Below are positions 16,475 to 60,940 of a DNA stretch of 64,000 nucleotides, in pieces. The DNA comes from Acorus gramineus (taxonomy: Eukaryota; Streptophyta; Magnoliopsida; Acorales; Acoraceae): the NCBI GenBank assembly GCA_030737835.1, contig CM060855.1, positions 15,629,438-15,693,437 of the forward strand. Direction: 5' to 3'. Within the stretch, counting starts at the first letter, position 1. Each line of letters begins with the position of its first letter. Under the pieces are notes generated by a model. It saw only the letters and a list, made by a program, of their open reading frames with translations, did not search any database and had not been told where the DNA came from. The translations under genes and the position numbers were made by a program.

Positions 16475-17039
16475 ACAAAAGATGGTGTTTAGAAATGCTT
16501 TGAATGCTTTTCTATCTGCAGTAAAATATTATGTTTTATATATAAAAAAATCAGTTCTAAATGATAAACAAGATTTAAATATCTTAGAATCTGATTTTGA
16601 ACTTTGTATAGGTGAACACAACAAGACCCTTTAGAATTTCCTTCAGAATGTCAAAAAATTTAAATATCTTTTATTACAAAATTAGTTTTAAGCAATAAAA
16701 GGGACTTAAATGTTTTGAAATCTAATTTTGAATTTCATTCGTAAACAAGACCCTTCACCAGTTTTTCCAAATCAATTATGTTAGTTGGAAAATTTTAAAT
16801 TTTAATCCACACTAGCTTGCCTTTTTTTTTTTATTTATTTATCATGGATTTGCTCTTCACTCTCTGAAAAATATGCACAACATTTACGAGTAATTTTGTA
16901 TATCTAAGTTTTTTTGTCATCAGAAAATTCTAGACCTCCCTGAGATTATCTATAGCCTTTTATTCGTCAACGCGATTATGATTCAATTAGTAAACAAAGC
17001 TAGCCATAGCATCTTTAATTAATCAAATGGTTTCATACA

Positions 17040-18240
17040 CCACATAATAATATTATAAAACATCCCTTGTTTGTTGGTGGGGGAGTTGTGTGTGGATTTT
17101 TGAGTTCTTCTTATGACTTGCAAACACACACCAACATAAAATATCCCCAACAGTGATATATACCACTAAAATATTAAGGTACATAGACATAGGGCGCGTC
17201 TATCCCCACCAAACGTTTTTCTTACCCCACCAATCCAGGTCGACCGGACTTGGTCGCCATTTCAGGTTTTGGGCGACCGGACTTGGTCGCCATTTCAGGT
17301 TTTGAGCGACCGTAATTGGTCGCAATTTCAGGCTTTGGGCGACTGTAATTGGTCGAACAGGGTTCGGAACTATATCTACCTATTTTTTGTAAACAAATAA
17401 ATTTTTGGGTTTATCCATCATATTCTACATTTATTCTTTTATCCAAACAACAGCTAAGGGGCCGAAAAAAATGTAAGTAGGTATACTTTCAATTAATTCA
17501 AATTTTTGTAGAAAAATATCTTATTAGACAAATATATATCATTTTTAAGCTTCATTTGAATTCGTAGTTAAGAGGATTCTTCGTTTGAAAACAAAAAAAA
17601 CCTATCAGTTGATCCAAACACATTATATATTTGGCTTTTGAAAATTAGTCCGTCACTTATGTAAAAAAAAATTGTTCTTATATTCTATATTTAAGAATAA
17701 TAATTGATTCTCCTTACATTACAACTCAGACTTGGAGTAGTATGAAGGATTCAAGGAAGATATACGTCATGGGATTATGTTCCCAGAAAAAAAAATATAA
17801 ACTTTATTACAAATTCTGTTCGACCAAGTTCGGTCGCCCGAAACCTGAAATGACGACCAAGTCCGGTCGCCCAAAATCTGAAATGGCGATCAAGTCCGGT
17901 CGTCCAAAACCTGAAGTGGCGACCAAATCTGGTCGACCTGGCCGGATCGGTGGGAAAAGATAAAACACCGATTTTTTTTCCCGATTGGTGGGGTAAGAAA
18001 AACGCTTGGTGGGGATAGCCGTGCCCATAGACATAAGGTACATATATATTTCGTCATGTAGCCTGCCTTTCTTTTTGGCATACCTATGCATTTTTCCTTC
18101 TGCATGGTTTCCAAGTTCTTGTTACTTATTATATATAATTTGCTTCAAACAAAGCTCATTGGTTGCTTCACATAAAAAGTTACCATCATGTCATTTCTTC
18201 TCGGTCACCTTGGGACAATTAGGCCACAGATGCACATAAA
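17040..18240. repeat. Older internal duplication, copy 1 (copy 2 at 19255-19570)
   Basis: The block reading CTTGCAAACACACACCAACATAAAATAT...GTACATATAT...GTCATGTAGC...CTTCAAACAAAG recurs at 19255-19570 in the same unit, and both versions recur in unit 2 (about 45690-46040 and 46980-47260). The internal duplication is therefore older than the 23-kb segmental duplication. The copy here is expanded by the 835-bp element at 17192-18026. Confidence 0.75.
17192..18026. mobile_element. Non-autonomous MULE-like element with inverted subterminal arrays
   Basis: The element is bounded by the perfect 9-bp direct repeat atagacata (17183-17191 and 18027-18035), the usual Mutator-superfamily target duplication. 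The terminal inverted repeats are about 43 bp: 17192-17234 pairs with 17984-18026, with only a few mismatches. Inside each end lies a short array of a roughly 33-bp unit containing GGTCGCC and TTTCAGGTTTTGG, in opposite orientation at the two ends (17235-17360 and 17818-17940). The middle is AT-rich with no transposase. A small open frame over the right array reads a repeated SGRPKPE motif and is considered a by-product of the repeat. Unit 2 has the unfilled site near 45810-45830. Confidence 0.85.
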
Positions 18241-19697
18241 TATATCACATGTTAGGTTTATTGTACTGGGTCATTCATGGCTTCATGCAGTCCTAACTTT
18301 GTATAGGACATCTATAACAATTCTCCTATGCTATATGTATATAGATAAAATATAAAAAGACGCATTCAATTCATTCAAACATATATTTTATTTTTATGAA
18401 AATAAATCATTCATATCAAATAAGAATATAATTAAAAAATATTCAAAATCTATTGGGACAAAAAAAAACTACAAAATGACTAAGTGTAATATTTTCTGGC
18501 TAGTTTATATTCACATTTTTTTTGGGTGTGCCTTTTAATTTATGAAAATTATTTTGTATTATGGGTGCGACAAATACCTATTCATTGGTGCCATCTAACT
18601 GAAGAATAACTGCATGTGATCATTGATTAAAGGATGATGTTAGGGACAACTTTGAATGTAGTATCGCAAGCAGTTTCCATATCTTGATTTAATGAAGCAT
18701 CTAATTTCATGAAAATAATATATATATGTAATAAATTGTATATTCCCATTTATCTAGTGAAACATATTTACATCATTAATACAAGGGTTGTATTTTATAA
18801 AGTCTATATGTGATTAAATAAATGATAGAAGTTCTGTATTAGGTGACATAAATAGGCTTCTTTATAGGTGATTTTTAAGCAATCAATATTATTAGTTTTT
18901 TTTTCTTAACTAAGATTGTTTTTTAATTTTATTTATTTGAAGATCGATAGATTGATGTGTAGAAATAGGTTATTTTCTTATTTATAAAAAAAAAATTAGA
19001 CCATAGAAGGGAATTTATTTTGAATTTCTTACCTAAACAAGACCCTTCACAATTTTTCAAAGAAGCCATCATAAATTAAATTTTCCAAACATGTTTCCAA
19101 TTATCCGCATATTATAATATTTTCACTTTATCCTATGTTACATTATTAGCCTAAATAATTAAAATTGTGACCCCTACATTTCAAGCTTATTTTCCTATTC
19201 CATTATGATTCCATTTGTAAACAAAGCTAGTCATAAAAATTCTTTAATCAAATTGTCTACTCCTTTGTCTTGCAAACACACACCAACATAAAATATCACC
19301 AATAACTTGGCCAGCAACAGTGATATGCATATACCAATAAAATATGAAGGTACATATATTTGGTCATGTAGCTTTCATTTTCCTTTCATCATATGGATTT
19401 TTCCTTCTACATGATTTTAAGCTCTTGTTAAATAGTGTAAAAGGTCTTGTTTGTATTTGCTTCAAACAAAGAGCTCTCATTGGTTGGGTCACATAAAAAA
19501 TATCTATCATGACATTTCTTTTCTTGGTTCCCGCACAAATATGCCCCCAAATGTCCATTGATACTCCCCTAATGTGCCTCTATGTGAGATTGAGTCAATG
19601 GGAATAACTGGATCTTAGCAAGGACTGCTCAGAGGATTTGGTCTCTGGTTTTCTAATTATAGCTAAATTTGATGTGAATGTTTCTTTGGGTAATGGA

Positions 19698-20241
19698 GTT
19701 TGACTCTAAACCCAACCCCCCCCCCTGTGAAAAATAAACCCAGAATAAGGAAGAATACAAGAGAATAATAAAAAAAGTTGTTTGTTTTGACAGAATAAAT
19801 TCCGATAGTTATGCCTGGATAAGTTAGGATAAAGCCTGATAACTATTCTAAGGAAATGTTAGAATTGTTTATCAGGACTTATCTATGTCAATGGATAAAA
19901 ATACCCTTCTCTGTCATTTTAAAAAATTTATCTCACCTAACAGTCTCACACAGATTTAAAAAACTGTCACATCTATCAAATCAATCATACATTTCTCACA
20001 CTATTCCCAGGGGTATAGTTGTCATTTAAAAAGTCATAAACTCTTATTCATCCATTATCAACCATTTATCATCACTTTATCCAAGATGAACCAAACAACA
20101 AAAAAATCATTTTTACGTTTTCCAATGAGAATAACAGAAAATACAACCAAACAAAAAATTGCTTATTCAGTCTGAATTGTTATCTATTATAGTATAGCTA
20201 TCAAGAGCGAATAACTCAATATCACACCCCATACCGGGGGT
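19698..20241. mobile_element. Probable insertion of about 540 bp, MITE-like
   Basis: Unit 2 reads straight from TTTGACTCTTAAAAGAC, whereas unit 1 has about 540 bp between TTTGACTCT and AAAAGACCTA. The inserted DNA shares a stretch near its right part (AATAACAGAAAATACAACCA) with the Tourist-like element that follows. Terminal repeats are not clear: the left end is C-rich after CTAAACCC and the right end is CCATACCGGGGGT. The superfamily is unresolved. Confidence 0.5.
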
Positions 20242-20362
20242 AAAAGACCTAGTTTGGGAAACTCATCGAACCTTTGATTGTTAGTAGGTAGATGTATTCT
20301 GTTTTCACTGAGAGGTTTTGGATTCAAATTTTCTGTGCGAATACAATGCATTAAAACACTCA

Positions 20363-20809
20363 GGCCCTGTTTGGATAGGGGAATAAAGGGGGGAATAGGG
20401 GGGATAAATGGGAATAGGGGTAAAAAACTTGTTTGGGTGGGTGGTATAAAGGGGTATAGCTATGCAGAATTATGTGAGAATAAACTGGTATTTGTATTCC
20501 AAGTCTCCCCATGGAATAGTGTTATTTCTCCACTAGTTCTACCAAATAATATGTTATCACATCAAATCATCTATCATCACCTCTTATACATCAATTGGGC
20601 TCACATGTCAAATCAATTTTTTACATTTTATTCATATTTTATTCTTCATCAGTCAAATACTCCAACCTTTATTATTATTATTATGTTTCCCAACGGGAAT
20701 AACTAAAAACACAACCAAACAGAAAATCACTTATTCCATTGATAAAGTCAACAATTCTGGGAATAGGTATAAACCTCAGAATAACTTATGTCTCTATCTA
20801 AACAGGCCC
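20363..20809. mobile_element. Tourist-like (PIF/Harbinger) MITE
   Basis: The ends GGCCCTGTTTGGATAG and CTATCTAAACAGGCCC are inverted repeats typical of Tourist-type MITEs. The flanking trinucleotides are TCA and TTA, close to the TWA target duplication of the superfamily but not identical. The body is GGAATA-rich near the ends. The corresponding site in unit 2, near 47490-47510, lacks it. Confidence 0.65.
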
Positions 20810-20845
20810 TTAAGGATTATTGAGAATACAATGCATTTCAAAATA

Positions 20846-21110
20846 GAGATTTTTAGTTTTCAGTCACTGTAAACATACCTATTTAGTAATCGATCTCTCA
20901 CTTCTTCATATTTTGGTTTTAGTCCCCATATTTTCCTTTTTACTCCTTCTCACGGACTAAAAACAAAACCAAATAATTTAGGGATAGGTCCCTCCTAGGG
21001 ACTAAAAAAGAATATATCCTTTAAATTTGGGGACTAAAACCAAAATATGAAGAACTGAGAGATCGATCACTAAATCCTATGGTTTATGGGGACTTAAAAA
21101 TAAAAATCCC
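20846..21110. mobile_element. Palindromic MITE with 9-bp target duplication
   Basis: Flanked by the perfect 9-bp repeat ttcaaaata (20837-20845 and 21111-21119). The two halves fold back over nearly the whole 265 bp: GAGATTTTTAG... at the left pairs with ...CTTAAAAATAAAAATCCC at the right, and both arms contain GATCGATCTCTCA-like and TTTGGTTTTAGTCCCC-like blocks. It belongs to the same family as 25937-26393. Confidence 0.85.
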
Positions 21111-22525
21111 TTCAAAATAATATCACATGCTTTCACACCTATTTTATATCTGGCCTTTAAAAAGTGGGGCAGAGATACTCCCACCACCCAAATTATATGT
21201 TTCACCACCCTTTTAAACCCCCCACCTCCCATTTTGATTTTTACTACACCCACCTCCTAATAAATACCCACTTAATAGATCACCAACCCCACCACCTACC
21301 CTAAATGCACACAGCAACCTCTCTCTTCTTCTCCTTCTTTTCTTTGTTTTCTACTTTTCCTTCCAATCGTGGGTTTCTTCCCTAGGCACCGTGAGCCCTC
21401 TGTCAGGCCGCCGTGAACCCACCTTGAGCGCGCATCGTTGTTCTTGTTGTCCCCTACCACAGCCCTCCCGATCGTCACCTCATGACCTCTCAAAGTGAAA
21501 GAAACGGATATTTGATTTTTCATTTCTCCTTTATATGAATGGTATTGGTGATTCATCAGTTGTATTAATTGATTTTTGATTATTGTATAATTATTGAAAT
21601 TTTTGTTAGAAAGTTAAAATTTTGATAGGAAGTTAAGGTATTTAAAGAGAAATGTAAGGTTTAGGCTCAATTTTTTTTCTTTTTTCATTCAAAGATGTGA
21701 TTGTGATTGAATTTTAATTTATTTGGTTTAAACTGTATATTACTAAATATGTGATTTTTTGATATAAAGTTAGGGTTTTGATAGTATGTTAGGGTCTTTT
21801 TGGGAAAATATATGATTTAGGGTCAATTTATTTTTTATTTTTGGATTCAAAGATATGATTGTGATTGCATTTGTTTAGTTTAAACCCTATATTTTATCAT
21901 CATTGAACATGTTTAGATCGGATTTGTTAGTTATATATTCATAGGGATTTATGGCGTGGGTAATATGATTTTATAATGCCTTTAGTCATCGATCTGTCCT
22001 TTGTTTGTGTTAATGGATGCATACATGAATAATCTTTTGTGATGTTTTTTAGTATTATTTGTTAATTGTTACTGTGGGTTGATGTGATTCGTGTATTCTT
22101 TAAATGGTTAATTGAAATGATAATACGATTTCAAAGGAAATTCTTGTGTTAATGCACAGGTTAGGCTGAGTCTTCTTCTATTGGATTATCAGGTTGATCT
22201 ACTATGTAAATTTTTATTTGCTATAATTATATTAGTAGCCTAGAACTGCTTTGTTAATGTTCCAAATACCCATAGTGAGGGTTTGTTTATTTTATTTTTT
22301 TAATGATGAATCCATTAGAATGTCCATGGCTGTCTCTGTCTTGTAGTCTATTCTTTAACAAGTTTTTCTCATTAATGTTGGCCTTGACAATTAATTCAGG
22401 GGGGAGGGGGCTAGGGAAGAGTCAATATTGTGGGGGTGCCAATGAGTTGGATATTTGATAGATAATAGGCTTTATGTCTATTATTTTTATATTTTTATAT
22501 ATTATTTGAACCAATAGTTCGCAGG

Positions 22526-22834
22526 ATGCCTCTGAAGCCACGCGTTCTACATATTGCTTCAAATCGGAGATGCCAATCTAAAAGATTGACTAAAGATGTC
22601 CCTTCAACGTCAGTCATCCCATTCATTCAAGAAGTGACATCAAGTTCTCGAAATATTGAGGTCGAACCACAAGAGGAAGATGAGAGGGAAGAAGTAAAGG
22701 TAGAAGCATATTCAGATATTGATGAAGGTAGTATGAAGGGTCCTTTTCCTGGTGGTCTAGAAAATAATGAGCTTCTCATTGACTATCATTTTGTTTTTTC
22801 ATCGATTTTTTGGAATGAATGCTTATTTAAGTAA
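22526..22834 (+). pseudogene. Plant mobile domain (MAIN-like) protein fragment
   Basis: An open frame of 102 aa starts MPLKPRVL, has a basic N-part and an acidic stretch rich in E, and ends with GPFPGGLENNELLIDYHF followed by SSIFWNE. The FPGG-x-x-x-x-x-LL-x-x-Y pattern and the trailing W-x-E are the opening motif of the plant mobile domain found in MAIN/MAIN-like proteins and in many MULE elements. The rest of the domain does not follow in any frame, so this is a fragment. It was identified from remembered family motifs, not a search. Confidence 0.55.
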
Positions 22835-23099
22835 TAACAATGTTTCGATCAGTTGTATATTATATGATTTTTGTAGGATCACTTGTTGAAATTCAATAAC
22901 TTACTTTAAACAGTGTGGATGTTATTTGAATGGTGGTATTGATGGCTTTGAATGCAAGTATGACTTTGAAGGTTTACCCATGTTTATGAGGGAATCATGT
23001 CAAAAGACTTGTGAATAATTCAACTATTGTTGAATTTGTGATTTTTTTTTCTTATGTTTCATGAGGAAACCTGATTGATGAAGTCAAACATATTACTAT

Positions 23100-23820
23100 A
23101 ACTCATTCAAAACTCCCAATTTTTTTTTCTGTTCCCATCAACATAAAGGTGGTCTATGATATATAAATACATAGACACCCCATGTGTCTAACCCATTCCA
23201 GAACCAAATGGAGGACTTTTCTGTTCCCATCAACATGCGTATTGTTTAGGAAATTTAAAAACTTAGACATTGCATATGTCTAACCCATCCCAGAACATAT
23301 GCGTTGATTTTTCTGTTTTCATAGACAACAATAATGTCTAGGAAATTTAAAAACTTAGACACTACACATGTCTAATCCATCCTAGAACCTATGGGTTGAT
23401 TTTTCTGTTGCCATAGACAGAAGTATTGTCTATAATATTTAAAAACTTAGATATTTTATGTGTCTAACCCATTCCAGAGCCTATGGATTAATTTTTTTGT
23501 TTTCATAAACAGAAGTATTGTCTAAAATATGTAAGAACTTAGACATTGCATATGTCTAACCCATTCTAGAGCCTATTAATTATTTTTTTGTTTCCATAGA
23601 CACAAATAATGTCTAGAGTTTTTAAAAACTTAGACAAGGCATGTGTCTAACCCATTCCCGAACGTATGAATTGAATTTTCTATTTTCATAGACAAAATTA
23701 TCGTGTAGGGAATTTAAAAACTTAGACACTGCATATGTCTAACCCATTCTATAACCTTGATTGATTTTTCTATTTCCATAGATAGAAGTATTGTCTAGTA
23801 AATTTATAAACTTAGACAGA
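23100..23820. repeat. Tandem array, period about 91 bp, left block
   Basis: TGTCTAACCCATTCC-type motifs recur at about 23187, 23279, 23370, 23461, 23552, 23644 and 23736, a spacing of 91-92 bp. Each unit carries two short palindromes of the form AGACA...TGTCT, for example tagacattgcatatgtcta. The array resumes with the same spacing at 24376-24580 after a non-repeat interruption. Confidence 0.85.
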
Positions 23821-24375
23821 GTATAGCGATGCATTGGATTTCTACTTGCTCCCAGGGAGTTATGATTACAACCGTTGAAAGCGATAACAAAAGGATCGTT
23901 TTGAGTCAATAACATAATCCCCTATTGTTTCCAGTTAGGAAGCGAGGCGACCAACCGAACGAAGGTGCGAGCGTATGAGACATCTCTATTTTTCCCCTGG
24001 GGCTTCCTAACTTTCTCATCAAAGACTGCCTCACTCGAAAGCTCTTACTCTCGTTTCTCCCCATTTCTAAAAGTACATCAAAGTAGCATTCGAAGATCCA
24101 ACATTTCAGGTTCAGGATAGTTAGAAAAAAATTTCAAAGCCAAAAGTGAAGAAGAAGGTGACCGAAGGTGTGGAAACCAGTCTAAAGCTTCTCCGTAGAT
24201 TTAGGTCTTCCCCATCCCGATCCTGCACCCGTCACTTCTTGGAAGCACCGAGCACGGCTGGGTTCGTTATGAGTTTTTTTTCTTCATATTATTCCATTCC
24301 AACTCTTTCCCGATACCTCCCGAGGAAAATGAAAATCCCGTTCTCCGATCTTCGTCGCTCCTATGTTTCCACACC
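23821..24375. other. Non-repeat block interrupting the 91-bp array
   Basis: This block of about 550 bp is richer in G and C than its surroundings and breaks the tandem array cleanly: the array stops in the middle of an ...ACTTAGACAGAG unit and resumes at CACCTGTGTGTCTAACCC. An open frame at 24146-24406 is Ser/Arg-rich and unrecognised. The texture suggests captured host or organelle DNA, but I cannot identify the source. Confidence 0.45.
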
Positions 24376-24580
24376 TGTGTGTCTAACCCATTCCAAAATC
24401 TTTTGATTGATTTTTTTGTTCACCTAGACATGATTATTGTCTAGAACCTTTAACGACATAGACACACTCGATGTGTCTAACCCAAACCAGAACCTACGGT
24501 TTTCATACTGTTAACCTAGATATCTTGATTGTCTAGGTTATATAAATACATAGACAATACATATGTCTAACATGGGAAGA
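24376..24580. repeat. Tandem array, period about 91 bp, right block
   Basis: Three further units with TGTCTAACCCA-type motifs at about 24383, 24475 and 24567, and the same paired AGACA/TGTCT palindromes. It ends about 120 bp before the right terminal inverted repeat of the host element. Confidence 0.8.
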
Positions 24581-25936
24581 GAAAAAGGGTGGCATATAGA
24601 AGGTGGTGCTCTTAATCATTATACCTTAGAAGTGTTTCAATGCCTCTGATTAGTTGAGGAGGTGGTGTCTAAAGTAGTTTAGGTGGTGGCAATATCTCTC
24701 CCCTAAAAAGTGTTTTATTTTGTAAGAGCTATATATTCATATATAAACACATACTATCATCTTTCATCAACAAACGATGTGGAATCAAACCATAATGCAA
24801 GCTCTCATTTATCCTCTTCCCCACATGGGCTTATTAGCCTTATTGGACTTTTGGCTAACTCAAATTTTGACACTTTTAATGGGCCACATAGAGAGTCCTT
24901 ATATGCAGTTCTATATATGTAATCCTATTTCACTAACATAGTATATATTGGCCAGAGGAATCTTATATTTTTGTTAGATTATTTACTTCATTTTTTTTGT
25001 TAAGGCATATATATGTTAGATGAAGTGTATACTTAAAATAATATAAATCAAAACACGCGAGGATCATAGGCATTGTTGACATAAGGTTGTCCGTAACATT
25101 ATCCTGATCGAAATGATGGTTATTCTATGGATAATACTACATACAACCCCAGTTGCGGTACCATGTACAAACATAATTATATATTACATGTGATGAAATA
25201 TTGAACATATATCTTCTGTGGGACATGAGACCACACACAAGGTTGAAAATAAAGACTGCATTTAACAACATCCTTGTTCTCTATGTCTATTTTGATATAC
25301 GGGTGTGTTCCATTGTTCTAATTTAATATAAATATATGTTGGTGATTCTCTAATTTCATTCACTAATTTATTGATAATGACTCACTAATTTATTGATAAT
25401 GACATTTCTATCAAAACCATTAAAAGTTTGAGACAATCATATTATTAGTCCTTTAAGAATAATTAGGTTTATTAAAAAACCTTAATTAGCATGAGACATG
25501 TGTAATGGAAGCATAAGAATTATAGGGGTAGTCAATTAGGATTTTCATGGACAAAATGTCTATGTCCGTGGATTTATAAATCTTGTGTTATTCAATCAAG
25601 ACATTAGTTCATCGACAAAAAGTCCAATGTTATTCAATTGAGACATTATTTTGCGGACAAAAAGTCCAGTGTTATTCGATTGAGACATTATTTCGTAGAT
25701 AAAAAGTCCAGCTTAATTCAATTGAGACATTATTTTGTGGACATAAAGTCCATTGTTATTTGATTGAGTCATTATTTCGTAGACAAAAAGTTAAGTGTTA
25801 TTCGATTGAGATATTATTTCGTAGACAAAAAGTCCAGCGTTATTTGATTGAGACATTATTTTGTGGACAAAAAGTCCAGCGTTATTTGATTGAGACTCCT
25901 GATAGTAGATATTTTGTTATGTGTTATTTAATTTAA

Positions 25937-26393
25937 GGGATTTTTATTTTTAAGTATCTGTAAACATGCCTATTTAGGGATCGGTCTCTCACTTCTTCAT
26001 ATTTCTTTTTTAGTTCCCATATTCAACCGTCTATTTGATTTTTAGTCTCTCCATCAAACGTCCGTCCATACACCGTTAATTTTTGAAATATGATTTATTT
26101 TTAATTCCCTGTAAACTATGTTATTTAGTGACTAGTCTCTTCCTTCTTCATATTTTACAGGGACTAATCACTAAATAACATAGTTTACAGGGACTAATCA
26201 CTAAATAACATAGTTTATAGGGACTTAAAAATAAAATCACATTTCACAAATTAACGGTGTATGAACGGACGTTTGACGGAGGGACTAAAAACCAAATAGG
26301 CAGTTGAATATGAGGAATAAAAAAGAAATATGAAGAAGTGAGAGACCGATTCCTAAATAGGCATGTTTACAGGGACTTAAAACTAAAAATCCC
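25937..26393. mobile_element. Palindromic MITE nested in the 2.1-kb element
   Basis: Flanked by the perfect 9-bp repeat ttaatttaa (25928-25936 and 26394-26402). The ends GGGATTTTTATTTTTAAG and ...CTTAAAACTAAAAATCCC pair, and the arms continue to pair for most of the 457 bp. The centre holds a second palindrome with two direct copies of ACAGGGACTAATCACTAAAT, as if a sister element had inserted in or recombined with the first. Same family as 20846-21110. Confidence 0.85.
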
Positions 26394-27329
26394 TTAATTT
26401 AAATAGGATTTGTAAAGACTTTCATAAGTCATGAATTTTTATGGATTTTTGTGGACTTTAAAAAGAGAAATATAAAGGAAAAAGTCATTTCAAAATCTCA
26501 CCCAAATGGGTGAGATTCTCATGGAATTTTATTTTAGCATTGTGAATATATCTTTTTTTTTTTCTTTTAACAGAATTCATTTCTTTTATGGATAATGGTT
26601 ATTTCGTGCCTTTCATATTTTTATTCTCGTATCACTCTTTACCTAAAACCAAATACCATCCTTTTAAAATCCAACTCTACACAAATAACATCCTCAAAAA
26701 TCAAAATTCCTACAACTGATGAAATTTTCACAACATATGCTACAATTATATAGTAATTTTTATCTCATCCTAAACTACAACATTATAATAATTCATTCAC
26801 AATGACTATGAACTTTAGATGACCCATATATGTCATACAAAACCAACCAATCGGTCATATGTTGACAACATTCAAACAACAAGATCATTCACTAAATCCC
26901 AATCAAAATGCATTCATCACTTATGTATTTGGAAATATGTTTGAAAAGTAGCTTTTTACTTAAAGCTTCTCTTAAAATTGCATTACGAAGAAGTATACTT
27001 TTGTTATATTTATGAAAAGCTCAATTTTTCCTGTTCATAAATAAAAACTATTTTTTTTTCTTATAAAATTCAGGATCGCTTGAGGCATTTGGAAACATGT
27101 TTAGATTATATATGATTCCTACAAAAGCATAATTATCCAAACATATGTCCAAACACTACATTTGAAAATGAATATTTTTATCATGGCATTCTAGCAATAT
27201 ACATTTCAGATATATGAATATCGATATTTATTATATTAAATTACATTTTATATTGGGTATGAATAATTCATGTTGAATTTGAATATTTGAGTTTTTTATT
27301 TGTTATTTTAAAAATCCAAAAACAAGAAT

Positions 27330-27640
27330 CAATAGAAATCCACCTGTGAGAGTCTACAAAAGTATGTGAAATTATATGAGAGTCAATATTTAAAAGTCTA
27401 TAAAAGTCTGTGAAAGTCCATGAGATTCAATATGTGAAAGTCTGCAAAAGTCTGTGAAAGTCCATGAAAGTCAGTATATGAAAATCTGCAAAAGTCTGTG
27501 AAAGTCCATGAGAGTCAATCGGTAAAAGTTTGTAAAAGTCTGTGAAAGTATGTGAAAGTCCATGAGAGTCAATATTTGAATGTCTGTAAAAGTCTATGAA
27601 AGTCTGCAAAGTCTACAAAAATCCATCAAAGTCCGTATCG
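27330..27640. repeat. Short-unit tandem array (GAAAGTC-type)
   Basis: Many diverged copies of AAAGTCTGTGAAAGTCCATGA and GAGTCAATAT run in the same direction. The minus strand reads as an open frame of repeated H-x-F-x-D-F-type residues, which is a by-product of the repeat and not a gene. Confidence 0.75.
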
Positions 27641-29248: not shown

Positions 29249-29279
<31 letters not shown>

Positions 29280-40794: not shown

Positions 40795-40825
<31 letters not shown>

Positions 40826-41335: not shown

Positions 41336-41411
41336 GCATTTCACACGTGCAACCATCATTTTGAGGATCCATTCTCTTCCGAAATCATGGTTACAACTCC
41401 TCGATTACCTA

Positions 41412-41735: not shown

Positions 41736-41755
41736 AAAAGCCTTATTTTTATTTA

Positions 41756-51500: not shown

Positions 51501-52595
51501 CAGGAGTTTGAACCATTCGTATGGAATTCTTTGCAATTCTGGCTTTAGCCTTGATTTTTGCCGATGGAAGGACTCTTCCATTTGTAATTGATCTAAGTAC
51601 TTCGTTTTTGCTTCTTTTTCTGCTGCCAGCAGGGCTGGGTTGCGGGGATCATCCATGACTGCTTGTTGGGCCTCTTTTAGTTTTGCCTTTCTGACCTCCA
51701 GAGATCTATTGATTGGTCCAAAGACGGTATTGTTCCAATGTTTTAGAATCATCTTGAGGTGCTGCAGTTTTTTTGCCAGAATAAACAGTGGAGATCCCTC
51801 AAAGGGAACACTCCAAGCATTTTCCACCACCCCCCAAAATTCCGGATGCAACTCCCACATTTTGAAATATTTAAAAGGTTTGGGTCCCATTGAGGACGAG
51901 GGAAGAACCGTCACCTTGAGAGGAGAGTGATCCGAGAGACCCGGGCTATCATAATGGACATAAGAATCAGGGAAAGAAGTCATCCAACTTGTATTGACAA
52001 GCACTCTATCCAGTCGACAGAGAATGCGGTCCACTTGATTATTAGACCATGAATAATGACAACCTGTGCTCTTGAGGTCTTGCAATGCACAGTCAGCTAT
52101 GCATTTGTTAAACTTAGCTAACCTTCTTGTGTGAGCTGGTTGTCCACCTTTTTTTTCCTGGCTGAATCTGACTTCATTAAAATCGCCACCAAGAATCCAT
52201 CGAGTGGATCCAATCTGTTGAGACAAGGAACGAAGGTCTTCCCATAGAACCTGCCTTTCTGATGAATCATTTGCTCCATAAATGACAGAGATGTAAAAGG
52301 GAGGTTGACCATCAGATGGAGAGGCCAGACAGTGGATGAATTGAGAAGAGTGCCGAATAAGAGAGAGATGGGTCTGATTGGGATTCCATAGGATCCATAT
52401 GCGCCCATTGGAGGAGGGATCAAGAACTTTATAGTGTGGAAGGACATTCCTCACTATTTTATTAGAAGACAAGGACTCCACCTTTGTTTCTACAAGGCAA
52501 ATGATGGGAGCCAGAGTATTAGCCAAAAATTTCTTTACATCTAGTTGTTTTTCCTTACTGTTGAGGCCACGTATATTCCAAAAAAGACAGTCCAT
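48544..52595 (-). pseudogene. LINE ORF2 (endonuclease, reverse transcriptase, RNase H), disrupted
   Basis: The start at MDCLFWNIRGLNSKEKQL marks an exonuclease/endonuclease/phosphatase domain with ICLVETK, GGDFNEVR and GLSDHSPL. The reverse transcriptase has SSPGPDGFP, GLRQGDPLSPLLF and the catalytic FADD box (HLCFADDLMIF). A zinc-binding RT-associated domain (LLAWQGALNRLPTLDRL, CCLCSS...HLFIRCSYS) and an RNase H (KANSDGSVSEDRYGFGAL, SESDSTTALAWA, REGNAAADYLA) follow. Three lesions are seen: a frame change between the endonuclease and RT frames near 51465-51570, probably with a small deletion, and in-frame amber stops at 49660-49662 and 49315-49317. All domains are otherwise readable, so inactivation looks fairly recent. 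About 1350 codons overall. Confidence 0.88.
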
Positions 52596-52630
52596 AAATT
52601 GTGGCAACAAAAAGGGGAAGGGGATTAAAC

Positions 52631-54133
52631 TTATCTGCACTCCCCGGAAGACTGGGTAGTTTTCCCTTTGGAGAGAGAGGCCTTGCGCTGAGGATAAGTG
52701 GCCACCAAAGCTCCGTCCTGTTTTTCCAGCATAGAGGGATCCTTCCCGGAAGATCCCTTTTGTCGTTTCTTCTTTTTTTGCTTGGGCAGAGAGGGCTCTC
52801 CCCCCTTGATAGGGAAGTCCTCCGGGCAAGGAAGAACAACCTCAATATTAATTGACCTTGTGGGTATGACCTGATCGATGGCTGCTCCTTGTTGATCTGG
52901 ATTGAGCACAGTTGAATCCACAGATCGAGAGTAACACCTAGGTGTCTTTCCAGGATTCTGAGTTGCTTCGACGTGTACTTTCTCCTTTGGAACAATATTG
53001 GACTTAGCCCGAACCTCAGATAGTGCCGCAGATGACAAATCCTGCTTAGTCTGGACTTCCTCTGGTTGGGCTGAACTGATCTTTGTAAGCTGGATGTGAG
53101 AGACTCCCTCCTGACACTCAGAAGGGGGATCTATTATCTCATCCTCTTTAGACTTCTTTTTGGAATTGACTTGCACAAATTCTTCTTCAGTTTGTATCTC
53201 CCTCAAGGTTGAAGGCTGAGAGAGAGAGGGAGTAGAAGAGGGGTGAGGTCGAGCTTTCTTTCCGCAAAGAGCACTATCATGTCCAAAGGTGTTACAATGA
53301 TCACAGGCTAAAGGCTTCCAGTCATAAGCAACCTTTACTCCCACTCTATCACCTTGTCTAATCTCTACAAAGACTTCTTCAGGAAATTCACATCCAGCTT
53401 CCACCTCTACACATACCCTTGCAAAGGAAGTTCGAGTTTTGTGAGCAGTTGGCGAGTCCATGTATAGTGGGGTACCGATCAAGCTAGCAATTCTGCCTAA
53501 ACACTTCGAAGACCAGAAATGAAGCAGCAAATTTGGAAATTTAATCCACACCAGGATGGAGGACAGCCTCTCAAACTCCAGCTTGGTGTTTTTGTTCCAC
53601 CTCTGAATTACAAAAGGCCTATTATCCATAGACCAAGGACCCCCTTCAAGGACTTTGGTTAAATCTTCCTCCAAGGAAAAACGGATCATAAAGAAACCAT
53701 TGCCTTGCAGGGACAGTATGAAAGTCCCTTTGGGATTCCATAGTCTATTAAGGAATTGGAGGAAAGGAATATAAACTAGGTTCTTACCACAGACATAACC
53801 AACTAGGATGTGGCCCCAGGATTCTTCTGCTTCAGGTACCTCCTCTTCTTCTAAGATTGCAACTTTTTGGCCCCCATCAAGGTGAGGTGGGAAATAATCC
53901 ACCGCATTGGATGATTGCAAAGGCCTAGGAGACGAGGAAGTGAAAAAACTGGACCATAACTTAGTCTTTTCGGAGACCTCAGGAGGGGGTGCAGTAGGAC
54001 ATACTCCCTTTGATGAAGCCCCCATATGTGAGATGACCTGCTGCTTCGAAGACTCACCTTTCGAAAAAAGACCCTTTTGCAGGGAGACCGGCATGGCGGA
54101 GACCGGCCACCGGCGGAGGAAATCGCAGATCAA
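52631..54133 (-). CDS. LINE ORF1 protein (nucleic-acid binding)
   Basis: 500 aa without internal stops. Residues about 85-205 resemble the DUF4283 domain found in plant LINE ORF1 proteins (GFFMIRFSLEEDL, GPWSMDNRPFVIQRW). Near residues 265-290 lies the zinc-knuckle CDHCNTFGHDSALC after YDWKPLA. The C-terminal half is low-complexity, rich in K, E and S. By family knowledge it packages the element's RNA. It ends 35 bp before the start of ORF2, in a different frame. Confidence 0.85.
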   Translation of the reverse strand: MICDFLRRWPVSAMPVSLQKGLFSKGESSKQQVISHMGASSKGVCPTAPPPEVSEKTKLWSSFFTSSSPRPLQSSNAVDYFPPHLDGGQKVAILEEEEVPEAEESWGHILVGYVCGKNLVYIPFLQFLNRLWNPKGTFILSLQGNGFFMIRFSLEEDLTKVLEGGPWSMDNRPFVIQRWNKNTKLEFERLSSILVWIKFPNLLLHFWSSKCLGRIASLIGTPLYMDSPTAHKTRTSFARVCVEVEAGCEFPEEVFVEIRQGDRVGVKVAYDWKPLACDHCNTFGHDSALCGKKARPHPSSTPSLSQPSTLREIQTEEEFVQVNSKKKSKEDEIIDPPSECQEGVSHIQLTKISSAQPEEVQTKQDLSSAALSEVRAKSNIVPKEKVHVEATQNPGKTPRCYSRSVDSTVLNPDQQGAAIDQVIPTRSINIEVVLPCPEDFPIKGGEPSLPKQKKKKRQKGSSGKDPSMLEKQDGALVATYPQRKASLSKGKTTQSSGECR

Positions 54134-55839
54134 AAAAGGGGGAAAGTTTTGCCTAGGTCAGTTGAAGTTTGTATAGAGCTAACTCAGTTTCACATTGTTC
54201 TAATTTAATATAAATATATGTTGGTTATTCTCTAATTTCGTTCACTAATTTATCGATATATAATATTTTTTAAAAAAATTCTATATATTTGGGACAATCA
54301 TTAGACCTTTAAGAATAGTCAGTTTTGATAAAATTTAATTAACATGAGACACGCCTAAAGATGCAATGGGAGCATAAGCATTAGACACCACGATGAAGGA
54401 CGAAATCTGATTTACACAAAACACAAATTTTTGTCTTAAACTTGAGCTAATGTCTCATGTGTAAAACCAAAAGATGGCATAAACTATGTTCATCTTGTTT
54501 TAGTTGTACTTATCATATTTATAAAGTCTCAAAATAATGAAAGCTGCATTTTAAGTGGTCACCATGGTTCTTCCACCCTGTATTCATTTTATGACTGTGG
54601 GGCCTGATGGAAAAACACTTTAAGTTTTTTAATTTTGAAAAAATCACAACATAATTAAAATTAAGTAGAGTTAGGAAAATCTGACAAAAATATATGATGG
54701 ATCGAGATGTATAAAAGTGTTTTTTAAAAAATAGATTCTGTTCCACTCTGATACAATGGTCCACTGGAGTGGTGATCCACTCCGAAGACAGATGATCTGT
54801 GATCCTTCTCTATGTGCATTCATGAGAAGATTTTAACAAACACTTTATACATCTTTAGAATTTGAAGACCTCACTTTCTCTAGTTTTATTTTTTAGTGGG
54901 CTTGGACTGGTTTTTCCGTGTGAAAGCAACCAGAGAGAGGGAATGAACATGAGGCCATTGATTTTTGGTTTTTAAAAGTTGGGGGAATAATTGATTAATT
55001 AAAACTAATTTATTTTATAAGTAAAACAACATTTTGTTATCAAACAAATTAAATTTAACTTCTAAATTTGAAAGTGGTATTTTTGACAAATTATACAGTA
55101 AAAAGTTGTTTTACAGCTTATTTAAACAAACATTTATAGCTGTTTATTCTTTACTTTTCAACAGCTACAACAAACATATCAACAGCTTATTAGAAAAGTT
55201 ATAATCTATAATTTATAAGTTATAACCTATAATCTATAAATTTAAATTGTAACAAACACGATCTAAATTTTAACAGAACTAAAATTAAGTAGAGTTAGAA
55301 AAAACTGTAAAAAATGATAGGCATGCAAAAATGCTTTCCGAAAAACAGATTGCATTCCATTATGGTGCAATGGTCCGTTAAGGTGCACTCCAAATTCTAA
55401 AGTTTTTAGAAATAGACATACTTTATAAGTCTTTAGAACATGAGACCTATCTTTCTCTAATTTTATTTTTTTAATAGGCTCGGACTGGTTTTTCTGTGCG
55501 TGTGTGTGTGTATATGAAAGCAACCGGAGAGAGGGAATGAACACACATGAGGCCTCTGTTTTTTTGGGTTTTTAGAAGTCCTCTGTTTTTTTTGTTTTTA
55601 AAAGTTGGTGGAACAATTGATTAACCCGTACTGTTATCTCTCGTTCTCTATAAAGAAGCACAAGAGGTGCTAAAACACCCCAACAGTGAGACGGATTTCG
55701 ACCGTTAAAAACATTTCCAGATGCTTTGAAAACTGTTCTTCAAAATTTGATCTATTGATCTTTTTTCAGTCTTTCACAGTGATGAGAGGTTGCTCGCCAA
55801 TTTAACTAAATATCGGTTCATAGAAAAAATAAATGAAGA

Positions 55840-56062
55840 TGTGCACATAAAATTTTTTCATATCAATACATAGTCATGAGAATCTTATCAATACATATTT
55901 GATGGATGATACATGTTCATAAAAAAGTTAAAAATATTTCATTAATTAAAAAATTATTGATAGAATTCTTATTAATGTATTTTCATAGTTTTTTGTCGTT
56001 CATCCAAATACGTATTGATGATAATCACATCAGTATGTACTGATATGAAAATTTTCTAGTGC
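55840..56062. mobile_element. Palindromic MITE
   Basis: The left arm GCACATAAAATTTTTTCATATCAATACAT... pairs with the right arm ...ATGTACTGATATGAAAATTTTCTAGTGCC over most of about 220 bp, including the internal ATCAATACATATTTG / CAAATACGTATTGAT pair. No target duplication was confirmed. Absent from unit 1. Confidence 0.65.
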
Positions 56063-56304
56063 CCAAAACCCTTTTAAGAATACCAATTGCTAACAGATGA
56101 AATTTATTTAAAATCAAATTAACCAACAATGCTATAAACCACCAGCCACCAAACTTAACTATCACACTCATGTAATTAACATATAAGTAATCAATAAAAT
56201 CATTTTATTTAGATCTTTCAAAATAAAACAAAATAATTTCTAATAGGGCCTATTTTCCTTGGCTCAACTGCTATGTGCCAATTGTACATCGCAGATCATT
56301 TTTA

Positions 56305-56535
56305 GGTTCCGTTTGGAAATGGGTTTAGGCAATTTTTAGGTTAGCAAGAGACTGCATTTTTCAAACCTATTTTCAAACAGAAAAACCAGAGCAAGAAACT
56401 ATAAACATATTTCTGTGAAAAAATATAAAAAAACTGAGTTTTTCAGAAACCGTGGAGAGGGAACTTTTTATAAAATCAGTTTTAAATCCAACTTCTGTCT
56501 AAAATCAGTTTTGCAATCATGCAACCGAACGCAGT
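56305..56535. mobile_element. MITE-like element upstream of the RLP copy 2 3' end
   Basis: The ends TAGGTTCCGTTTGGAAATGG and, on the other strand, GACTGCGTTCGGTTGCATGA are similar short inverted repeats. Inside, TTTTCAAACCTATTTTC and CAGTTTTAAATCC-type segments show partial pairing. Texture resembles 34962-35195. Confidence 0.45.
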
Positions 56536-56853
56536 CTACCACGTCGTGACACATGTTCTTGATGAGTCACTATCTTCAACTGCTGATACCTCAGGTCATA
56601 TTAATTTTGAAATGATCTGCAGTCGACTGGGGCCCTTGTTCATTTCATTCTTTTTTGGTTTATTATATATCTTTATAAATATTTTTTAGTACTCCTATAG
56701 TCCTGTTAGCCAGACTGCCAAAATTATCAAAACTAAGTCGAAAATGACTTCATGACAGAATTTAAAACCAGTAGTATCTATGAAAAAAAAGCCAACTCTG
56801 AAATACTAGTACACAATAATATTTTTAGTTCTTCATAATCGATTTCAACAATA

Positions 56854-58568
56854 TCATTTACGAATACACTTTCTAATGCATCCTGCGAGGATTGAAATCC
56901 CGGTCCCACATGCATATATCAGATCATCTGCTGCTAAGAAAAGCTTGACCCTCCAGTTGTACTTGAACGCAAGCACAGCAATGACACCCCAGAATCCGAT
57001 TGCATGCGATGCTGCGATGAACGAGTAGTAGATCACCGGGCTATCGATGACCCTCTGCTTGTCGACCTCATCATTGGTGATGCGATGCGTTTCTGATGTT
57101 CCATTTGAGCAGCTCCTTCCCACAACTAGACCACATAAGTTTGGATTGCCTTCAAAATCGCTTGCATTGAATGTAGAGAACTGCCCGTTCGATGGAATAA
57201 TGCCTGATAGATTGTTATAGGCCACGCGAAATGTTGAAAGCGTGTTCAGCTGAGCTAGTTGAGGAGGAATTTCACTTGAGAGATGGTTGAAAGACAGGTC
57301 CAAACTCTCTAAACTCATCAGGTTTTGGAAGGATTCTGGAATCGATCCTGTTAGGTTGTTGTGTGACAAGTTCAACGAGTGGAGCGTTCTCAAATATCCC
57401 ATTTCCATAGGGATGGGACCAGACAACATATTCATAGATAGATCTATCTGTGTCATCAAGGAGAGGGGATCACCCATAAAATTATACAACCTCCCCTTGG
57501 TTATTAAATCAGTTGTAACTGTTATCGTAGTACCATTAGCCATCAAACTGTAGTAAACCAAGGAATCACTTGGAAGAGGACGAATCCAAGAGGTGATGTT
57601 GTTGAGACAACTGGGAATTATTCCTAAAAGACTGTTATTTGAAATATCTAAGATGTGAAGATTTTGCATATGACATAGTTGAGTTGGGATGGAACCTTTG
57701 AATTTGTTCTTGGATAAGAGAAGTGTTGTGATATTAGGAAGATCAAACAACCAGCTTGGAATAGCATCCGAGAGAAAATTGTTTCTAACATCTAAAAATA
57801 TTAGGCTTGAACAATTCAATAAGCTTCTTGATATGGACCCTGTGAGGTAATTATCATGGAGAATCAAGTATTGAATTTGTTGCACATTAGAATTTCCAGG
57901 AAACATGTCTCCTATAAAGTTATTTCTAGATAGGTCTAATATTCTTATCGACTTGTGGACAGCTAGAGAAGAAGGGATATTGCCCTTAAATGCATTTCCA
58001 GACAAGTTTAAGTAGTGTAAATTGGGAAACAAGATTGTTAGATTTTGGGGAAGGATTCCGGAAATGTGGCACTCAGATAAGTCGAGAAATTCGAGTGATA
58101 GACTTTTGTTATGGATAGGCCAGAGAAGAGGACGATGGAATGTGTTATATGATAAAATTAGCTCAGAAGTAACATTATTTATAAGTTCAAAGGGATTGCT
58201 CACTATGATCGAACTATTTGACAAGTCTAGTTTGGTCAATTTATATTGGGTGAATAAGAAGCTAGGGATCCTCCAACCACTACGTTTGTTGAGTACACAA
58301 CTATTTAAGACCAACCAATATAATTGAAATGATGGAACCCAAGATGGAGATTCAGTTTCCACTTCTAGTTGATAGTTATTTTGGAGATTAACGACTGACA
58401 AGTTGGAGAGGTTGCCAAACAAGGAAAATGAGAACATACCATCTAGGTGATTGTCAGATAGATCTAATATTTCAAGAGAATATAGATTCATTAGACATGT
58501 ATCGATGTTTCCCTCGATCAAATTTTTCGCGAGGCTTATAAGTTGTAAATTTTGTATCCGACAAAGAC
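56854..58568 (-). pseudogene. RLP copy 2: intact 3' exon of a decayed receptor-like protein gene
   Basis: The large 3' exon is open from its AG acceptor (58569-58571) to the stop at 56854, about 570 codons. It has LRRs, the TKGRLYNFMGDPLSLMTQID segment, the NPNLCG cap, a membrane helix (SPVIYYSFIAASHAIGFWGV) and a short basic tail ending CIRKCIRK. It is the paralogue of 32203-33911. The N-terminal part is not intact: the exon-2 counterpart (60385-60490) has a stop and a frame change, a foreign LRR-like relic lies at 58760-58925, and no signal-peptide exon is in the window because a Copia element begins about 60.9 kb. A 226-bp stretch (57296-57521) is identical to 32645-32870. It may be a pseudogene, or a shortened protein may use an internal start. 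Confidence 0.75.
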
Positions 58569-58759
58569 CTGCATCGTAGAGAGAGAAGTGCGATGAATAC
58601 TGTTATGAAAAATAAAATAAAAATCAACTCGAGGAGACTTTTTTATTTCTTAATAAATAATCATTAAATTAGATAGATCATATAGTATCACAATAGTATT
58701 TTTTTTTTAATAACATAACTTGTGCTCACTACTCAAAATTATTGAGACAATAGAACTTC

Positions 58760-58925
58760 TCCAAAAGAGAGATTGCATTTGTTGTTAGATAAGTTGTGTT
58801 CACCACTCAAAATATTGAGGCTAATAGAATATGATGTACCTTTTATAAAAGTTGACATGGATGCTAGGTTGGAAACCCATGGAATTTCCATGAGTTCATT
58901 AGGACTAAGATCTAACTATAGATGT
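58760..58925 (-). pseudogene. LRR exon relic upstream of RLP copy 2 3' exon
   Basis: Read on the minus strand it gives LDLSPNELMEIPWVSNLASM, which fits the LRR pattern with a following IPxWVSNL turn, then LNILSGEHNLSNNKCNL before stops. No counterpart was seen at this place in unit 1. It could be an exon gained from another RLP or an ancestral exon lost from unit 1. Confidence 0.45.
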
Positions 58926-59034
58926 ATAGTTTATCTACTTAGAACAATAACGAACACATACATACATAGCAATTTCTTAACATGCTGTTAAGCTAATATT
59001 TTAGTAGAATAGAGCTCTATTAGAGGGCTTAAAC

Positions 59035-59590
59035 AAAGTCCCTCCAAAAGGATTCATACAACCCCCTTAAATTTGACTGAAATCCATATAACCCCCTGTC
59101 TTTTCTTAAAATCCATATAACCCCTTGAAAACACCTAATAAATCCAAATAACCCTCTAAATAAAATTTTCGTTAATAAATGATAAATATTTTGTGAATAT
59201 TTCGTTTGGTTAACCTTCACTGAAGACACAATATTCTAAAAAACCACTACAATGTGTTAAAAATACGAAAAATCCTATGAGAATGATGATTTTACCATCT
59301 ATGGATATATTATAAAGCCTTATCCGGAGGGGTAAAATTGTCATTTATAGAAGATTTTTCGCATTTTTAACACATTGTAAGGTTTTTTTGGTATACAATA
59401 TTTTCTATCAGGGTTAAAAAAACATAATATTCACAAAATATTTATCATTTGTAAATGTAAATTTTATTTAGGGGGTTATTTAGATTTAGTAAGTGTTTTC
59501 AGGGGTTATATAGATTTTAAGAAAAGTTAGGGGTTTATATGGATTTCAGCCAATTTATAGGGGGTCGTATGGATTTTTTCCAAAATAAAA
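59035..59590. mobile_element. Long palindromic MITE
   Basis: The left arm (CAAAGTCCCTCCAAAAGGATTC..., AATCCATATAACCCC repeated) pairs with the right arm (...GGGGTTATATAGATTTTAAG, GGGGGTCGTATGGATTTTTTCC) over about 200 bp per side. The centre, AAAAATACGAAAAATCCTATGAGAATG / TCATTTATAGAAGATTTTTCGCATTTTT, also pairs. Absent from the matching site of unit 1. A shorter relative is at 35595-35830. Confidence 0.8.
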
Positions 59591-60139
59591 AACGCCCGGA
59601 ATTATAAAATGATGATGATCGCATTTGTGATCCATCAAGTTGCGCCCCTAGAGGCTCCACAGAGATTAATCAGAATGCAGTAGGATAATTTTTTTGGGCA
59701 TTGTTACACACAATGTTTATTTACAATATCATATATATTTTCAACAGGGCATATGTTTCTTTAGATGAAGCATATAATTTTGCATTTTTATAGGTGAGTC
59801 CATTGAATTAATTGGAATATATATACAGTTTTACGAATATACATCCTTAATTATAAGAATATTGACTTTCAAAAAAATTAAAACACGTGGGATTATCCTA
59901 ACATTATACATACTTATATCAATAATTTCAAATCCAATGATTGCCAAAAGAAAAAAATTAACTTCATCTTCAAAAGCTAACACTTGATCTTTGCATGACA
60001 TAATAATCATCATAAGCTAACGCTTAATCTTTACATGACATAATAGTCATCATAAGAGATTATTTTCTTTTTATGACCTACAACATGAAAGAATTACCTT
60101 GTAAAACTGTCTCACAAATTCCCTAAGAAAGTTAGACAA

Positions 60140-60260
60140 TTGTTCCCTTTAAGGTAAATGGAAGTTAATGATGTCAAGTTGTGAATATGACATATTCAAG
60201 TGATCAGATCATTTGGATCTCTTTACACGTGGACCAAGCATTGCTGCTTGTTAAGAAAAG
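60140..60260 (-). pseudogene. Counterpart of the possible LRR relic at 36709-36912
   Basis: On the minus strand CCAAATGATCTG and TTGACATCATTAACTTCC align with the unit 1 relic, but stop codons interrupt the frame. Its position, below the exon-2 counterpart, differs from the order in unit 1, so unit 2 has been internally rearranged. Confidence 0.35.
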
Positions 60261-60384
60261 AACAAATTTTGTCACTTCATAAAGTTTGATGTAGATTTCT
60301 AATCTCTTGTAAAAAAAAACTATTCAAATTTAACTGAAACTAATTGATGCACTAATATTTAGTTTAATAGAGTATGACAACTAT

Positions 60385-60490
60385 GAATTGTAAGAATGTG
60401 ATATTTGAAACCCATGTGGATCGACCTTCTTGATGTGATTTTCACTAAGATCCAAAAGTTATTGATTTTGCATACCCCAAAAGCCTTTAA
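60385..60490 (-). pseudogene. Decayed exon 2 of RLP copy 2
   Basis: On the minus strand it aligns with exon 2 of copy 1 (35414-35277). It starts GCTTTTGGGGTATGCAAAATC, and the LRR core reads LLDLSENHIKKVDP, but a TAA stop precedes it and the frame is lost after VDP. The donor side is not recognisable. Confidence 0.7.
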
Positions 60491-60940
60491 AAAATACATC
60501 AAATAAAAAATATCAGAGAGATTGAGTCATTATATCACAAAGAACTAATGAATAAACGAACTAAAGGACGGTGAGAGACATGTACTGTTCGCAAACGAGG
60601 ATTAAAAATTTTTTTTTTTTTTAAAGTAAATTTTGATATTAATTTATGTAAGAAACATATTTTTGTTAAATTCTTTAAAAAAATATTTTTTTATATGATA
60701 AAAATTAAAAATGTTAAATGCATGATTCTGATAAAAAAATTCACAAAAAAAAATTAAATGAAAATAAAGCGGTTACTGACATATGGTAATCATCATTTAA
60801 AAGAACTATATTCCTTTTTATGACCTACCATGTGAAAGAACAACCTCATAAAAAATATTTCTATATTCGGTTATGGATAGTTAGTAAGTTAAGAAAATGA
60901 ATTTTTTTTATAAATTTAATCAAGGTATTTTCAGTCAAGA
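60491..60940. other. Unit 2 intron-like DNA, no gene
   Basis: Matches unit 1 intron 1 (35415-36260) in several blocks, such as GTGAGAGACATGTA and GACATATGGTAATCAT, without the two MITEs of unit 1. Similarity fades at about 60890-60940, where the Copia element begins. Confidence 0.5.

Follow-up and report, generated by a model that had tools for sequence, protein, structure and literature searches.

A window of 64,000 nucleotides from the genome of Acorus gramineus (assembly GCA_030737835.1, contig CM060855.1) holds two long units in tandem. This raises the question whether the locus goes back to one 23-kb duplication with two units, as proposed by the initial annotation, or to a longer history. 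Four LRR receptor-like protein (RLP) genes, encoded by the minus strand of the chromosome, form a tandem array here, and the two units make up its left end. In the source genome, this array comprises about 112 kb and reaches beyond the 64-kb window; tblastn of the genome yielded four RLP genes, with last exons open in all four.

Layout of the Array

Strands are given where one applies, and positions outside the window continue its numbering.

16478..39730: unit 1, which holds RLP1
39731..64000: left part of unit 2, which holds the 3' part of RLP2

The left edges of both units are sharp (16478 and 39731), and the flanks beyond them are not common to both. The direct repeat with an ordered backbone claimed earlier was recovered by self-alignment, since 16478-36200 and 39731-60827 share 13 collinear forward blocks in a single order (5,612 aligned columns), compared with 5 reverse-strand matches. 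Dinucleotide shuffles of this comparison (n = 50) resulted in 0 matches, as did unit 2 reversed against unit 1. The proposed end of unit 2 at 60900 had to be given up, as the RLP2 gene continues to 79.7 kb outside the window. Homology to unit 1 runs on up to 79943, followed by two more units. Unit 2 was taken to extend to about 81100, a right edge set by convention like the edges between units 2, 3, and 4. In unit-to-unit chains, units 3 and 4 are 96.1% identical over 13,547 columns.

Receptor Genes

38026..38407, minus strand: RLP1 exon 1 (382 nt, LRRNT_2)
32203..33911, minus strand: RLP1 last exon, LRRs
56854..58568, minus strand: RLP2 last exon
66045-66182 and 76855-76992, outside the window: RLP2 intact cassettes
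79367-79748, outside the window: RLP2 exon 1

Judged by predicted domains, the core of the array is a plant LRR receptor-like protein gene. The open reading frame of RLP1 exon 1 matches LRRNT_2 (E 8.8e-13). The last exon of RLP1 and that of RLP2 both have LRR_1, LRR_8, and LRR_4 above the cut-off, and the best match among solved structures is the FLS2 ectodomain. No kinase family was among the domain matches of either exon, these two being the ones scanned. Inspection by eye of the RLP1 last exon indicated a transmembrane stretch and a short tail; signal peptide, transmembrane helix, and short cytoplasmic tail, likewise judged by eye, are compatible with the models. The four predicted models (742, 790, 765, and 886 aa for RLP1-RLP4) lack internal stops. 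A stop-codon simulation, covering substitutions only at a neutral divergence of 0.1 per site, ended with an open last exon in 0.5% of runs, which supports past constraint.

Inserted Elements

17191..18025: TIR-b, TIR element in unit 1, TSD CATAGACAT
41756..45475: TIR-a, TIR element in unit 2, TSD TTTTTATTTA, site empty in unit 1
39907..41735, plus strand: non-autonomous LTR element in unit 2, TSD AAAAG
48388..54190, minus strand: L1-type LINE in unit 2, TSD CACATTGTT, T-run at the left (3') end, site empty in unit 1
58614..59051: stretch missing from unit 1, common to units 2, 3, and 4
59052..59574: foldback repeat, at this site in unit 2 only
60940..64000, plus strand: unit-2-only stretch with a copia-type gag at 61262-62338, extending outside the window to about 65540

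TIR-a and TIR-b feature terminal inverted repeats and a TSD of 9-10 bp, a TSD length that marks Mutator-like elements. The target of TIR-b is single-copy in unit 2 (at 45816), and at least 39 further near-full copies of this element occur among the genome matches listed. The one ORF of TIR-a that was scanned (97 aa) had no Pfam match, and the same applied to the sole ORF scanned in the LTR element (197 aa). The latter is bordered exactly at 39907-41735, as annotated initially, with an LTR pair, TG..CA ends, and a 5-bp TSD; its LTRs align over only 240 columns. The L1 features ORF1, endonuclease, reverse transcriptase, a 3' T-run, and a TSD, its domains being DUF4283, RVT_1, Exo_endo_phos, zf-RVT, and RVT_3.

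Each unit had been expected to supply unfilled sites for the insertions of the other. TIR-a, TIR-b, the L1, and the LTR element were cut by script and the units realigned. Between units 1 and 2, the sites of TIR-a, TIR-b, and the L1 then aligned unbroken, but the LTR site remained broken: it is not clean in unit 1, with 176 bp compared to 10 bp in unit 2 after removal of the inserts. Likewise, the claim that nearly every transposon is private to one unit did not hold. Unit 4 contains 81 and 111 bp of the L1 5' end including the junction, and because this junction is shared, the L1 is not private to unit 2. In addition, 58614-59051 is found in units 2, 3, and 4, and repeats related to the foldback at 59052-59574 occur in units 1, 3, and 4, though elsewhere within them.

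Divergence and Exchange Between Copies

16834..19710: modules A (16834-17190 and 18035-18253) and B (18929-19710), an older internal duplication, counterpart at 45478-47402
32645..32870, minus strand: 226-bp patch identical in RLP1 and RLP2, unit 1 copy
57296..57521, minus strand: the same patch, unit 2 copy

Divergence between units 1 and 2 is uneven: the 226-bp exon patch shows 0, two noncoding modules show 7-9%, and the pooled other noncoding blocks 18%. The older internal duplication annotated before is present in both units, and K2P between copy A and copy B (0.445-0.495) lies above that between the units (0.079 for A1-A2, 0.093 for B1-B2). The proposed comparison of LTR and backbone divergence depended on the blocks used. 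When the LTR pair (16/235) was compared with noncoding blocks pooled at a distance from the left end (199/1086), the result indicated duplication before insertion (Fisher P 4e-6), but against modules A+B, which adjoin the LTR element (106/1250), no difference was found (P 0.44). There is no single duplication date for the units.

The identical patch contains 0 silent changes in 48.5 synonymous sites, compared with a Ks of 0.199 outside, and the longest identical run in 10,000 shuffles was at most 135, against 226 bp observed. RLP4 is mosaic, with some parts resembling RLP3 and others resembling RLP2. Up to column 581, its informative sites join it to RLP3 (28/30), and afterward to RLP2 (31/39), a clustering matched in 0 of 10,000 shuffles. 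Low-divergence stretches could also be due to purifying selection instead of exchange between copies, which we regard as possible, if rather unlikely, for the stretches taken together. The slow modules (A 42/562, B 64/688) flank a fast spacer (120/611), and this contrast holds for transversions alone (P 6e-4); here, purifying selection may well fit, and modules A and B could be regulatory sequence. Nevertheless, the exon patch is also devoid of silent change, and constraint does not produce the partner switch of RLP4. Moreover, no whole-module copies of A or B elsewhere in the genome were among the matches listed, and 10 folds of unit-2 module pieces gave no clear RNA fold signal (z-scores -2.08 to 1.31), so that structured RNA was rejected as a candidate. 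Rfam yielded nothing at gathering score in the whole window, and neither these folds nor Rfam revealed a function of the modules.

Exchange between array members also bears on the single 23-kb duplication with two units and later private insertions. The order of the units within the window and the three elements with clean empty sites in the partner agree with it, but the remainder of unit 2 and two further units lie outside the window, the L1 junction recurs in unit 4, and divergence varies by block. Given a correct assembly, it is refuted as a full account, and we consider it very improbable. The units might instead be alleles or falsely joined haplotypes. This assembly artefact is the least probable of all readings, with no observation in its favor: between units 1 and 2, about 5-23% of sites are different, depending on the aligned block, a range that allelic differences usually stay far below. 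Furthermore, there are no N bases in the window or in the flank fetched from the genome, and the copies bear different TSD-bordered insertions.

Quite probably, the locus is best explained as a four-gene tandem array with exchange, later insertions, and in-gene cassette duplication. The array would have grown by tandem duplication, most likely through unequal crossing-over, and its members have kept swapping pieces, as seen in the mosaics and the identical patch, probably by either conversion or crossing-over. Transposable elements entered between and within the copies, several of them after duplication, as shown by TSD-bordered elements facing unbroken sites. A second, finer duplication inside the genes would have added or removed a 138-nt two-LRR exon in frame. 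With four genes in the array and mosaic exchange among them, neither one duplication date nor the word "private" holds everywhere. The locus is also a warning that a duplication date from one block, or a "private" insertion from two copies, can mislead.

Cassette Exons

35277..35414, minus strand: RLP1 cassette exon, 138 nt, two LRRs, phase-1 introns on both sides
60388..60484, minus strand: decayed cassette in unit 2 with an in-frame stop and a frame change

The models of RLP1-RLP4 comprise 1, 2, 2, and 4 intact 138-nt cassettes, nine in total. The flanking phase-1 introns allow gain or loss without altering the reading frame. The broken exon 60388-60484 had suggested RLP2 to be a pseudogene with a cut 5' part; this was rejected, since the flank further right holds intact cassettes and exon 1, and 60388-60484 is accordingly a relic cassette. 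The x positions of LxxLxLxxN form the ligand-binding face in such receptors. In four related cassettes, a group chosen after the distances were known, 7 of 8 variable residues are located at the 10 of 46 positions that are putatively ligand-facing (P 1.7e-5). Cassette differences mostly at these positions would be expected under selection diversifying recognition. The exon outpaces its flank in one young cassette pair (8/138 vs. 47/3621, P 0.0008), which is the significant one of three (P 0.13 and 0.81 in the other two).

Since every intact cassette has 138 nt and phase-1 introns, any subset could be spliced in frame, and RLP4 with its four cassettes could therefore give several receptor lengths. 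It seems doubtful, and on present grounds improbable, that the ligand-binding face of these RLPs is modular by exon, with recognition diversity arising from cassette copying and splicing and RLP4 yielding several receptor lengths. Among the literature matches listed for copied LRR exons in RLPs, none corresponded by its title or the beginning of its abstract, a weak sign of absence.

Comparison with Known Systems

It is well established that RLP genes occur in clusters, with exchange among them and transposon insertions. In the tomato Cf loci, the repeats lie inside one exon, unlike in the Acorus array, where each LRR pair is a separate exon between long introns. Due to these exon-sized LRR pairs within long introns, each young cassette copy brings its own flank as a yardstick, and the pace at which a receptor gains recognition residues becomes measurable against the introns copied along with the cassette. 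Beyond receptors, the p genes of maize, which are Myb-type, offer a further comparison.

According to passages of a study on poplar, LRR-RLP genes form local clusters of up to seven members (PMC3975113), resembling the local grouping in Acorus. These passages are silent on cassette exons, on mosaic exchange, and on the history of insertions, all present in the Acorus array, and the terms "exon" and "gene conversion" have 0 occurrences in the available article text (PMC3975113). For the tomato RLP loci Cf-2/Cf-5 and Cf-4/9, parts of a review report repeated two-LRR super-motifs and sequence exchange between tandem genes (PMC4030839); repeated LRR pairs and exchange among tandem RLP genes are common to these loci and the Acorus array. 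Gene conversion in RLP, RLK, and NBS-LRR genes was linked to similarity, closeness, and clustering in sections of another review, which surveys families (PMC3924838). The Acorus case concerns a single locus, with its 226-bp patch and its mosaic gene. The account of the maize P1-wr cluster in excerpts of PMC2686159 describes genes arrayed in tandem that underwent unequal crossing-over as well as gene conversion, along with LTR-dated nested retrotransposons. The Acorus locus shares the tandem array, the exchange, and the retrotransposons, but the P1-wr copies are far more alike than the Acorus units (PMC2686159).

A Four-Gene Array of Receptor-Like Proteins

The core of the array is an LRR receptor-like protein (RLP) gene on the minus strand, which was placed four times by tblastn. 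The gene content points to a plant. The edges between units 2, 3, and 4 are a convention, and the numbering of the window is carried on past 64000 (adding 15629437 gives the place on contig C9, from which the window is taken).

Genes of the array and left neighbor (each RLP last exon is an open frame located by tblastn)
13837-15456, gene with ankyrin repeats and an MSP domain, left of the array
32203-33945, minus strand, last exon of RLP1; first exon downwards from 38407
56854-58602, minus strand, last exon of RLP2; first exon downwards from 79748
84796-86469, minus strand, last exon of RLP3; first exon downwards from 96946
108320-110077, minus strand, last exon of RLP4; first exon downwards from 127624

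The initial annotation described a tandem duplication of two units ending near 60900. The collinear repeat itself is real, as comparison of 16478-36200 with 39731-60827 gave 13 forward blocks in a single order (5,612 columns) besides 5 reverse-strand matches, whereas unit 2, shuffled 50 times or reversed, did not match unit 1. Nevertheless, the flanking DNA revealed the pair to be the left end of a larger array, and it holds the first exon of RLP2 and further array genes; unit 2 therefore extends over about 41 kb instead of 21 kb. A search of the 30 kb leftward and of 128-224 kb (E 1e-4, at least 30 residues) detected no additional member; a weak match to LRRs around 186 kb (26-31% identity) was the one exception. 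Across the genome from which the window comes (398.6 Mb in 137 contigs), identities of at least 76% were restricted to RLP1-RLP4 among the best 75 of 606 candidates, the next reaching at most 61%. Distant relatives (45-61% identity, several with stops) occur on contig C79 and at 15.29-15.37 Mb of C9, 0.3 Mb off on the same contig, and possibly represent an outgroup for the array. Left of the array, at 2767-15456, lie fragments of a helicase-like gene, which show a dsRNA-binding motif and weak similarity to Helicase_C (E 0.013); the ankyrin/MSP gene follows and is GC-rich (58.7% at 14001-16000).

Transposable Elements and Other Insertions

Insertions and unit-restricted stretches
17191-18025, unit 1, terminal-inverted-repeat element TIR-b, 9-bp TSD, single-copy target in unit 2
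39907-41735, unit 2, LTR element, borders exact by TSD
41756-45475, unit 2, terminal-inverted-repeat element TIR-a, TSD TTTTTATTTA
48388-54190, unit 2, LINE L1, TSD CACATTGTT, T-run at the 3' end, clean empty site in unit 1
58614-59051, common to units 2, 3, and 4
About 20.3-24.7, 25.5-27.7, and 27.9-32.0 kb, unit-1 stretches outside the delimited elements
23124-23818, 25585-25896, and 27345-27614, tandem arrays of about 92, 42, and 44 bp, respectively, inside unit-1-only stretches and near foldback repeats

With the four TSD-bordered elements removed in silico, units 1 and 2 aligned in 10 blocks with 6,031 columns. The proposed mutual pre-insertion sequence was thus recovered for L1 and both TIR elements, whose sites align unbroken, but not for the LTR element, whose site remains broken and for which unit 1 lacks a clean target. 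The insertions of TIR-a, TIR-b, and L1 are clean between units 1 and 2, but L1 is not private to unit 2: its 5' end together with the junction (matches of 100% over 81 bp and 98% over 111 bp) is also present in unit 4, and L1 is accordingly older than the event linking these copies. Around the LTR element and both TIR elements, the comparison is confined to units 1 and 2, because the best chains linking these two to units 3 and 4 do not extend that far. TIR-b, the ends of which contain 33-bp tandem repeats, is young, since at least 39 other near-full copies share 94-100% identity (best 40 of 5,113 candidates scored), one being identical across 801 bp; the family is a recent burst.

The foldback following 58614-59051 occupies that site only in unit 2 and has relatives elsewhere in the array. 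Neither the copia stretch at 60940-65540 nor 68050-76680 (8.6 kb, unit 2) matched units 1, 3, or 4. A copia-type gag on the plus strand lies within 61262-63725, together with a weak minus-strand integrase match at 63246-63725 (E 0.011, below the cut-off); either a rearranged element or a nested pair of elements may account for this.

Divergence and Exchange Between Copies

Noncoding modules A and B of an older internal duplication (counterpart at 45478-47402)
16834-18253 and 18929-19710

Divergence between units 1 and 2 is patchy, with K2P values of 0.056-0.278 across 10 blocks. Modules A and B differ at 42/562 (7.5%) and 64/688 sites (9.3%), their spacer at 120/611 (20%), and five noncoding blocks pooled from outside the left end at 199/1086. 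Used as a clock, the LTR pair (16/235 sites differing) gave a split answer: measured against the pooled blocks, the element looks younger (P 4e-6); measured against modules A+B, it does not (P 0.44). The modules are possibly regulatory sequence, and no whole-module copy outside the array was present among the best 40 of 240 candidates of the genome search.

The last exons of RLP1 and RLP2 (Ka 0.103, Ks 0.172) share an identical patch of 226 bp, compared with a maximum of 135 in 10,000 shuffles, and that of RLP4 switches near column 600 from RLP3-like to RLP2-like. Units 3/4 are 96.1% identical over 13.5 kb, units 2/4 94.6% over 4.0 kb, and units 1/3 93.8% over 1.8 kb surrounding exon 1. Together with the patchy divergence, this shows that exchange between copies is recurrent; a single date for "the duplication" is meaningless at this locus.

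Cassette Exons

Between exon 1 and the last exon, the genes carry a 138-nt cassette exon coding for two LRRs, with 1, 2, 2, and 4 intact copies in RLP1, RLP2, RLP3, and RLP4, respectively. All nine are preceded by AG and followed by GT, and phase-1 introns lie on both sides in the gene models, which predict 742, 790, 765, and 886 aa for RLP1-RLP4 free of internal stops. In addition, four remnants of about 40 nt and three decayed cassettes were found.

Decayed cassettes
60388, with a stop and a frame change (checked in this copy only)
87847
111467

Two RLP4 cassettes sit within 3.77-kb repeats of 98.5% identity, and in this young pair the exons differ more than the flanks (8/138 vs. 47/3621, P 0.0008; 49/3619 in the flanks with the repeat cut elsewhere, P 0.001). 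The corresponding values were 4/138 vs. 45/3352 (P 0.13) for a second young pair and 1/138 vs. 16/1341 (P 0.81) for a third. Of the 8 residues that vary among four related cassettes, picked from the nine for closeness, 7 fall at x of LxxLxLxxN (10/46 positions, P 1.7e-5); one additional codon varies silently. Such a pattern would be expected under diversifying selection on a binding face, with the function itself being putative.

Comparison With Known Systems

As a duplication with transposons the locus is ordinary; its exon cassettes lend it moderate interest. Among the titles and abstract openings listed for LRR exon copying in RLPs, none described an RLP array whose LRR number shifts by whole exons that keep the frame. 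Known already are RLP clusters (PMC3975113), gene conversion among RLPs (PMC3924838), the copying of a two-LRR motif (PMC4030839), and tandem arrays with nested insertions (PMC2686159).
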